From positions 1 through 38,032 of the IMG/VR virus record IMGVR_UViG_3300006030_000015: DNA of 38,032 nt; one strand, 5' to 3'. This document shows, in pieces, positions 1 through 38,032 of the stretch (positions within the stretch are counted from its first letter, which is position 1; every line of letters begins with the position of its first letter). Under the pieces are notes generated by a model. It was given only the letters and a program-made list of their open reading frames with translations, searched no databases and was not told the origin of the DNA. This DNA comes from a virus. The translations under genes and the position numbers were made by a program.

Positions 1-47
1 GCTCATTGGGTGAGCGCGGAGCCACGGAGACGCGGGAGCCGGAGCCA

Positions 48-192: not shown

Positions 193-221
193 TTGACACA
201 CGTTCCCAGAAAACGTATACA
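193..221 (+). promoter_or_regulatory. Sigma70-like promoter for the packaging operon
   Basis: A perfect -35 box TTGACA (193-198) is followed, after 17 bp, by TATACA (216-221; GTATAC one base upstream is the alternative). The first gene starts at 234. No obvious Shine-Dalgarno precedes that ATG (CACACCTACT), so the mRNA may begin nearly leaderless. Confidence 0.65.
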
Positions 222-233
222 CTCACACCTACT

Positions 234-788
234 ATGGAACAAGGCAACCCTAATCCCGTAGGCACGGCTGTCGCCAGTGAACAATCCATCGAATTGCCCA
301 ACTGGCTGTCCGTGCCCGACCCCAAACCACCACGGCTCCCACAGGAGTCGCGGGAACTGCTGCACACCCAGTATCAGCAGATGTTTGAGCGCGTCATCGA
401 ACAGGTGTATCGGGGCCGAAGTTTGCAGTCACTTCTCGAAGATGACTATCGAGTGATCAGCTACGAGGATTTCTTGCGCTGGATCAAGCGTGACCCGATG
501 CGCCATGAGCGATTCAAAGAAGCGCAAGAAAGCAGGACCGAGTTCATCGCCGGTGAGATTCTCGAGATCGCTGATGCGGAAGACAGCATCGAGGATGTGC
601 AACGGTCCAAGTTAAAGATCGACACTCGCAAGTGGCTCATGGGCGCTTGGAACAAAAAGCGCTATGGTGAGGTCAAGCAGGTCGAGGTGGCCGGATCGAT
701 CTCGATCACTGAGGCGCTCCAGCAAGCGCAGATGCGAGTGATCGAAGCTGAAGTGATTGACGTTGAACCCAAACAACTGGAGCAGTGA
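234..788 (+). CDS. terS: Terminase small subunit
   Basis: This 184-aa protein is the likely DNA-recognition subunit of the packaging motor. Assignment rests on position and size: first gene of the late operon, directly upstream of and overlapping the large subunit. Residues about 45-110 are helical and resemble the helix-turn-helix region of phage small terminases (segment DDYRVISYEDFLRWIKRDP, then a charged helix AQESRTEFIAGEILEIAD). The C-terminal half is charged and likely mediates oligomerisation and large-subunit contact. Its TGA stop overlaps the next ATG (TGATG), a translational coupling arrangement. It starts 13 bp after the likely -10 box. No catalytic motif is expected. Alternative: another small DNA-binding protein, but context makes that unlikely. 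Confidence 0.85.
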   Translation: MEQGNPNPVGTAVASEQSIELPNWLSVPDPKPPRLPQESRELLHTQYQQMFERVIEQVYRGRSLQSLLEDDYRVISYEDFLRWIKRDPMRHERFKEAQESRTEFIAGEILEIADAEDSIEDVQRSKLKIDTRKWLMGAWNKKRYGEVKQVEVAGSISITEALQQAQMRVIEAEVIDVEPKQLEQ

Positions 789-10792: not shown

Positions 10793-10820
10793 TTGACACC
10801 CGGCCCACTGGGTGTAAGAT
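10793..10820 (+). promoter_or_regulatory. Sigma70-like promoter for scaffold/coat
   Basis: A perfect TTGACA (10793-10798) and TAAGAT (10815-10820) are 16 bp apart; AAGATA one base later gives a 17-bp spacer. It lies in an 81-bp gap after the tailspike and 49 bp before the scaffold start, one of the few intergenic gaps in the late region. The spacer contains CCCACTGGG (10804-10812), the same core found at two other promoters. Expected to boost coat and scaffold expression. Confidence 0.65.
10804..10812. promoter_or_regulatory. CCCANTGGG site inside scaffold promoter spacer
   Basis: CCCACTGGG lies wholly between the -35 and -10 boxes, where a bound protein would block or remodel RNA polymerase. 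It matches the cores at 180-188 and 37538-37546. Operator function is inferred from the recurrence. Confidence 0.5.
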
Positions 10821-30002: not shown

Positions 30003-30404
30003 TTAACCCTTCAGCGCTTCAACGCCAGCATGCAAAGCGCCGTAGTGCTCAGGCTTGACATCGTTGATATTGCCGTAGCCCAAGCCGGTCAAGACCTTCT
30101 GAATCTCGGCACCCTTCTGCGGGCCAAGCGCCTTGTATGCGCTCATCACGTAGTCGATCAGCCCCTTCGGATCGCTGAACGGAGCACCAGTGGCGGCAGG
30201 CGCGGCGGGGGCGGGTTGAAACGTGGGAGGCGCGGGCATGGCAGCAGCCACCGGTGCAGGGGCTGGAGCGGGTGCCGGTGCAGCCACGGGTGCGGGGGTA
30301 GGGTTTACCACAGGCGCGGCTGGCGCTACATTCGTAGATTCCAGTTTCGCGGTCAAGGCAATGACGGCGGCGGTGAGGGCTTCAATCTTGGATTCGAGGG
30401 ACAT
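30003..30404 (-). CDS. Pro/Ala-linker protein (133 aa)
   Basis: A 133-aa protein with a short N-terminal helix (MSLESKIEALTAAVIALTAK), a long Ala/Pro linker (residues 25-75, repeated APAPAP), and a small C-terminal folded part of about 55 residues (DPKGLIDYVMSAYKALGPQK, KVLTGLGYGNINDVKPEHYG). The linker joins two domains. It is coupled closely to DUF2800 downstream (2-bp gap) and overlaps the ribbon-helix-helix gene upstream by 23 bases. A replication accessory role, for example bridging DUF2800 with other proteins, is inferred from position. Not recognised. Confidence 0.78.
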   Translation of the reverse strand: MSLESKIEALTAAVIALTAKLESTNVAPAAPVVNPTPAPVAAPAPAPAPAPVAAAMPAPPTFQPAPAAPAATGAPFSDPKGLIDYVMSAYKALGPQKGAEIQKVLTGLGYGNINDVKPEHYGALHAGVEALKG

Positions 30405-30585
30405 ACAGTGACTCCTTACGGGGGTTGGGTTGGATTACAAGTCGATCATCAAGAAAAGCCTCGATGAGTTCACGCAAGACATCGGACGGTTTCCCGTATC
30501 GCTCTGCCTTGCGATTGAACGCGGTACGGACACGGTTTGTGACTCGTAGAGTCATGTGCGTGTCGAATGATTTAAGTGCGGGCAT
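30382..30585 (-). CDS. Ribbon-helix-helix DNA-binding protein
   Basis: A 67-aa protein with the CopG/Arc-like pattern: a basic strand MTLRVTNRVRTAF followed by a helix NRKAERYGKPSDVLREL and IEAFLDDRL. The turn YGKPSD and the hydrophobic spacing fit RHH folds. It is the first gene of the replication operon, sitting next to a dyad that forms the operon's promoter, so autoregulation is plausible. The start at 30585 has GGAG ten bases upstream; an internal ATG at MTLRV (residue 11) is an alternative. Confidence 0.75.
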   Translation of the reverse strand: MPALKSFDTHMTLRVTNRVRTAFNRKAERYGKPSDVLRELIEAFLDDRLVIQPNPRKESLYVPRIQD

Positions 30586-37530: not shown

Positions 37531-37559
37531 ATTGTGGCCCATTGGGTGAGCCGTGTCAA
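37531..37559 (-). promoter_or_regulatory. Early minus-strand promoter
   Basis: On the minus strand, TTGACA (37559-37554) is followed after 17 bp by CACAAT (37536-37531). Transcription would start near 37525, about 55 bases before the first gene. The spacer contains CCCAATGGG (37546-37538), and the sequence GTGGCCCATTGGGTGAG is repeated at other sites. Best placed promoter for the accessory operon. Confidence 0.65.
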
Positions 37560-37922
37560 GCATTCGATGAAATAACCCAGTAAACCCAATGGGTATTGAG
37601 TATCCGTGGCCCATTGGGTAATGAGTTAGCAAACTGTGACAAATTGCCCTTTTATCTCAAGGGTAAGGATTCAAGGATTCTGAAAAAAAAGACCCAATGG
37701 AAAAAGTATCAATCTGGGGGGTCGCCTGCGCGAAAGTAACAATTGTCACACTCCCTCGAATTGACCCAATGGGAAAGGGAATTCCTATGTTTCTGTGGCC
37801 CATTGGGTGAGAGCCTCAAGGGAATTCCCGCTCACTGGGTGAGCGCTCGAGAATCCCAGATTTTGTGTGTCTGTAACCCATTGGATCAATACCCATCGGG
37901 TTAATTGCTCCAGCTCATTGGG
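37538..37922. repeat. CCCAWTGGG repeat array
   Basis: Exact CCCATTGGG or its complement lies at 37538-37546, 37585-37593, 37610-37618, 37765-37773 and 37799-37807. Near copies lie at 37693-37701 (CCCAATGGA), 37831-37839 (CTCACTGGG), 37877-37885 (CCCATTGGA), 37892-37900 (CCCATCGGG) and 37914-37922 (CTCATTGGG). Three of them share the longer context TGGCCCATTGGGT. The 9-mer is nearly its own complement, like a dimer-binding site. Confidence 0.8.
37775..37829. repeat. Two AAGGGAATTCC palindromes
   Basis: AAGGGAATTCCT (37775-37786) and AAGGGAATTCCC (37818-37829) lie 43 bp apart and flank a CCCATTGGG copy at 37799-37807. GGGAATTCCC is a perfect palindrome. Paired palindromes around a repeat fit an origin or operator cluster; not proven. 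Confidence 0.55.
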
Positions 37923-38032
37923 TGAGCGCGGAGCCACGGAGACGCGGGAGCCGGAGCCACGGGAGCCGCGCTCCCGGTGCCCGTGATTTTGGAGGGTTGA
38001 TTTGGGTCGAGGGGGTGGGGGAGGGCCGACGG
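37913..38032. repeat. Terminal direct repeat, right copy
   Basis: Identical to bases 1-120, including the GC hairpin (37960-37976) and the G-quadruplex motif (38004-38025). It shows the contig closes on itself; genes should be counted once on a 37,912-bp circle. Confidence 0.95.

Follow-up and report, generated by a model that had tools for sequence, protein, structure and literature searches.

The window, the whole 38,032-nt stretch of viral DNA analysed here, carries an array of short palindromes in one noncoding control region that continues across the junction of its two ends (Table 1). Bases 1-120 are an exact copy of 37913-38032, and in relatives the array and the terminase small subunit gene (terS) are contiguous with no break between them, which indicates from the sequence that the genome is circular or permuted. 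The 120-bp end repeat is better explained by the assembly of a circular genome with overlapping contig ends than by packaging of a terminal repeat, since the end overlaps of near-complete relatives have other lengths (141, 127, 127 and 109). Because the contig is circular, the site at 180 is the far end of the array's own control region, and the terminase site was rejected as an independent locus.

Table 1. Features of the control region, its promoters and the proposed regulator gene (window coordinates).
Feature	Position	Strand	Remarks
Single control region	37473 to 233, across junction		Between divergent gene blocks: early genes leftward, late genes rightward
XRE (HTH_3) early protein P0001, 99 aa	35446-35745	-	Proposed cognate regulator
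Early promoter	37531-37559	-	-35 TTGACA (37559-37554), N17, -10 CACAAT (37536-37531); matching geometry in relatives
Putative early-promoter operator GCCCATTGGGT	37537-37547	none	Within spacer of minus-strand early promoter
Array site ACCCAATGGGT	37584-37594	none	
Array site GCCCATTGGGT	37609-37619	none	Centre 22 bp left of 114-bp core
Conserved 114-bp core	37636-37749	none	Imperfect dyad GTGACAA...TTGTCAC; nhmmer and alignment
Array site ACCCAATGGGA	37764-37774	none	Centre 20 bp right of core
Array site GCCCATTGGGT	37798-37808	none	Centre 54 bp right of core
Weak site GCTCACTGGGT	37830-37840	none	
Array site ACCCATTGGAT	37876-37886	none	
Array site ACCCATCGGGT	37891-37901	none	
Weak site GCTCATTGGGT	37913-37923	none	In end overlap, same DNA as window 1-11
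Late (terS-proximal) site ACCCAGTGGGT	179-189	none	11-bp palindrome; near-universal in array-bearing relatives, after A/T tract
Late promoter	194-223	+	-35 TTGACA (194-199), N18, -10 TACACT (218-223), 16 nt before terS ATG (234)
Terminase small subunit gene, first late gene	234-788	+	PHROG 1482, E 6.5e-24
Scaffold/coat promoter	10793-10820	+	TTGACA-N16-TAAGAT; site GCCCACTGGGT (10803-10813) in spacer

The count against shuffled sequence that the initial annotation had proposed bears out its claim of enrichment: the 9-mer CCCANTGGG occurs nine times in the window (at 180, 7787, 10804, 20691, 37538, 37585, 37610, 37765 and 37799), while 100 dinucleotide shuffles give a mean of 0.91 and a largest value of 4. 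All of its site coordinates were correct except 7788, which should read 7787, and the five one-base variants that it reported were all located (37693, 37831, 37877, 37892 and 37914). CCCA is the commonest palindromic 4-bp arm of its type genome-wide, with 9 occurrences, followed by GCGC with 7. Six of the exact copies fall in the control region (∼670 bp, noncoding), where 0.05 are expected, and three fall outside it, where 0.8 are expected (p about 0.05).

A search with the large terminase subunit (TerL) yielded 80 IMG/VR loci, and in most of them the array lies ∼600-1400 bp upstream of TerL, and also upstream of terS. Among named phages the nearest is DSL-LC05 (OR003940; TerL 84%), which is predicted to be lytic, and whose description contains no promoter or repressor analysis (PMC10611076). 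In the relatives the motif is the 11-bp palindrome ACCCANTGGGT; 393 sites give ACCC(A)N(T)GGGT, with little information beyond the 11 bp, and a weight matrix built from the relatives alone, with the window left out, recovers the window's array. The comparison thus establishes the sites as a family feature, and, as the initial annotation had suggested checking in related phages, they recur there at the early and late promoters.

The array also keeps company with one early protein. P0001 matches PF01381 (HTH_3) at 30.3 bits (cut-off 23, E 4.4e-7), and its AF2 model (mean pLDDT 82) has a compact helical XRE fold, for which Foldseek returns HigA2, C.Esp1396I, the MqsA C-terminal domain and P2 C (2xcj) with probabilities near 1 but E values of only 0.03-0.25. 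A match to PF15731 (MqsA; 21.2 bits, E 3e-4) is below the curated cut-off of 30 and aligns the HTH only. The recognition helix of the XRE protein, GVPVFTLRKW, is nearly invariant. Among long loci, 24 have both array and XRE gene, none has the array without the gene, four have neither, and five have the gene with few sites (Fisher p 0.003, relatedness uncontrolled); three contigs that seem to carry the array without the gene (L019, L055 and L078) end less than 4 kb from TerL, in the range where the XRE gene lies in relatives. Of the early gene families, XRE alone is present in all 21 long loci with an array and in none of the three long loci without one. On the TerL tree there are two independent co-losses of array and XRE, one of which (L052) is surrounded by array-bearing phages, and no discordant case; a search seeded with XRE rather than TerL likewise retrieved loci mostly with array and core. 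Sites are few or drifted in the XRE-bearing clades L042-44 and L059/L065. In L059/L065 the recognition helix changes from RKW to RHW, and GC follows directly after the half sites in 7/10 versus 13%, which is suggestive of a specificity change, in two sister loci only. The RHH protein (30382-30585), which the initial annotation had named as a second candidate, was rejected because it is found in both array-bearing and array-less relatives. By eye, a protein of 185-204 aa in the early region of L111-L114 (G008, G010) resembles a DnaN-type sliding clamp.

If instead a host DNA-binding protein read the sites, the co-occurrence with XRE would be a phylogenetic coincidence, and the independent co-losses are indeed only two. 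Against this, no other early family co-occurs perfectly with the array, and the array-less relatives keep the core and, wherever one is recognisable, the early promoter, some of them bearing an AAACATC repeat instead; we judge a host reader improbable.

At the early promoter, the palindrome lies in the 16-18-bp spacer and touches the -10 box in 46 of the 53 loci where, after deduplication, a minus-strand promoter can be recognised; in DSL-LC05, for example, the arrangement is TTGACA-ATCTG-ACCCAGTGGGT-TAGAAT. Two array-less relatives, L032 and L036, keep the promoter at the early position and have no palindrome there. By analogy with known spacer operators, a palindrome lodged in this way is expected to exclude RNA polymerase, and the position strongly suggests an early-repressor role for the XRE operator array. 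The promoter shifts relative to the 114-bp core in steps of ∼11 bp, the distances from -35 to core clustering at 53-59, 63-66, 74-78, 86-88 and 94-97, with a single value of 45.

The scaffold/coat promoter holds the sole promoter-located copy of the motif outside the control region. Only two phages have a palindrome in this spacer: the window and, as the variant GCCCGCTGGGT, its nearest relative G001; the scaffold promoters of other relatives have different spacers, several of them AGCGCCTTCTTAGCG, and no palindrome. As a family feature the scaffold site was therefore rejected, and from the sequences it is a local addition that forms no family network. The initial annotation had placed the motif at three independent promoters; it is present at all three, but the terminase and early sites lie in a single control region, and only two phages have the scaffold site. 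TTGACA-AGCGCCTTCTTAGCG-CATAAT is the scaffold promoter of L114 (G010), L047, L048, L038 and L035, whatever the type of regulator.

The sites of the control region are arranged around the 114-bp core, which a profile matches in nearly all relatives, array-less ones among them. To the right of the core, site centres fall at 20, 31-32, 43-45, 53-55, 63-66, 74-77 and 85-87 bp, with a best period of 10.6 bp (R 0.46, n=178 from 45 non-redundant regions, where related phages are pooled; the maximum of 1000 nulls is 0.28). The phasing is repeated in 26 new loci fetched via XRE (R 0.47), and for sites within 110 bp in the same loci R rises to 0.81 at 11.0 bp, with a null maximum of 0.42. To the left, the sites close to the core lie at 22, 33 and 44 bp and far sites track the early promoter; here no one period fits both sets of loci (9.9 in the first, 12.0 in the XRE-fetched set). 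Expansion of one short sequence by chance, or as low-complexity DNA, would suit the clustering of the copies, but nine are present against 0.9 expected, and it is refuted by the way the sites are conserved, phased and placed at promoters throughout a divergent family, so that we give it practically no credence.

The folding of the core is not significant (z -0.75 as DNA, -1.42 as RNA), RNAalifold found no consensus structure for it, and an Rfam search of the control region including the core gave no match. Complementarity between its arms is 6.1, versus 4.9 for swapped arms, and 0/2000 permutations reach 6.1, with relatedness uncontrolled. A search for the core in MW202483, MW202898, Rhodoferax P26218 and Thalassomonas BA3 found no copy. 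Candidate roles are an origin or an architectural site. In the former case the palindromes would be iterons, the dyad the origin, and XRE or a replication protein the loader, a role that may coexist with one in transcription. The conserved dyad, its phased flanking sites and a change in the sign of GC skew at the control region all fit such an origin, but gene direction also changes at that point, the sites hold fixed places in promoters, and the XRE protein has no replication domain. In addition, the dyad persists in phages that lack both array and XRE, so the array is dispensable for whatever the dyad does. We regard a replication origin as possible, if doubtful.

Other repeats stand in place of the array in some relatives. 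The array-less L036 and L033 have an AAACATC/GATGTTT repeat around the core (10 copies in L036), and in this clade the regulator has possibly been swapped. The control region of L079 contains 8-10 copies of TGTGACAA/TTGTCACA repeats in place of the palindromes, and this repeat is similar to the arms of the core.

At the late end, positions 98-175 hold a G-rich block (GGGGGAGGGCCGACGG...) and then a small stem and T tract, ahead of the late site; many relatives have a similar block, which is a possible terminator or packaging site. In 47/48 relatives the late -10 box precedes the terS ATG by 15-16 nt, and because of this short interval the first late mRNA is predicted to be near-leaderless, with a leader of ∼3-4 nt (218-236).

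The centre of the late site lies 47-50, 57-61 or 68-69 bp from the ATG in all 60 loci scored, with no value between these classes and no out-of-phase locus. The TerL tree requires no fewer than 15 switches between the classes, and this is the only distance statistic counted on the tree, the others pooling related phages. If transcription starts ∼12 bp downstream of the first base of the -10 box, the centres are near -45, -55 and -66. Activators that face polymerase from one side of the helix obey such whole-turn spacing. The late-site spacing can thus be read as an activator spacing rule, with phased looping by a repressor as the alternative, and we have moderate confidence in a late-activator role for the XRE operator array. 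The late promoter of the window may not require activation, because its -35 box is perfect.

The phasing, the promoter positions and the restriction of the array to phages with the XRE protein together look like a one-protein early-to-late switch. We think it probable, on comparative grounds, that the sites serve as operators for the early XRE protein of the phage, which would repress early and support late transcription much as phi29 p4 does. The host sigma-70 polymerase would read the early operon, including the XRE gene, leftward from 37559 after infection, and accumulating XRE dimers would occupy the ACCCANTGGGT palindromes. The copy between -35 and -10 would then shut the early promoter by occlusion, the phased copies flanking the core would form a nucleoprotein complex with it, and the copy ∼45 bp upstream of the terS start would aid polymerase at the late promoter, which points rightward. 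An extra operator would have arisen in the scaffold promoter of the window and its nearest relative.

An array acting purely in repression, in which XRE represses both early and late promoters and the phased sites loop or wrap the DNA with no activation, would explain the early and scaffold sites within promoter spacers, and helical phasing suits looping as well. The late site, however, is not inside the late promoter but immediately upstream of it, and keeps its register at three distances in an activator-like manner; pure repression is in our view rather unlikely. More tentatively, and on a par with the origin in likelihood, one XRE complex on an origin-like dyad might turn early genes off and late genes on and time replication, with regulator and array as a swappable cassette and the dyad and promoters fixed.

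Co-occurrence, promoter positions and phasing thus support the proposal of the initial annotation that one phage-coded regulator, for which the XRE protein was a candidate, serves both early and late promoters; the control region that it described is real, and its guess at the protein seems to have been right. If the switch is real, it would be a compact early-to-late switch with a cis geometry readable from sequence alone, in a large family of uncultured podoviruses that numbers hundreds of IMG/VR contigs. The 15 or more whole-turn shifts are natural experiments on face-of-the-helix contact, and they make the activator and repressor models testable with one protein and two promoters. Operator array and regulator may be exchanged around a fixed dyad.

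Several known systems share features with this one. Mycobacteriophage stoperators are also many copies of one repressor site per genome, but they are asymmetric and scattered genome-wide, whereas the window's sites are palindromic and clustered (PMC9283540). TgrL of phiCbK is likewise an XRE transcription factor and an early gene product of a lytic phage, but it acts on host genes, and the parts of that report available to us describe no clustered phage operator array (PMC10688885). The operator of the MqsA antitoxin, AACCT-N3-AGGTT, has the arm spacing of ACCC-N3-GGGT with a different half-site sequence (PMC4894380), and the PF15731 match of P0001 is limited to the HTH and falls below the curated cut-off.

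Lambda CI/Cro and P2 C have in common with P0001 the XRE fold, palindromic operators in promoters and possible activation from an upstream site. The lambdoid and P2 repressors differ in that the window has no match to the PF00589 integrase profile (a control was found in 14/14 genomes), so that the integrase of a temperate-phage immunity switch was not found, and in that a 99-aa protein in a normal early operon is here paired with many sites in one long region.

The proposed likeness to phi29 p4 is functional: p4 is not known to be an XRE protein, P0001 matches XRE families, and none of the tests made indicates homology. The p4 site is CTTTTT-N15-AAAATG, present four times and used with p6, whereas the array described here has 7-12 short palindromes around a dyad of 114 bp. 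Like the proposed regulator, p4 is a phage early protein whose several inverted-repeat sites lie in the region separating divergent early and late promoters; with p6 it assembles a nucleoprotein complex on multiple sites, through which early transcription is blocked and late transcription activated (PMC3100819). The window has the corresponding layout, with predicted operators at the early promoter and upstream of the divergent late promoter.
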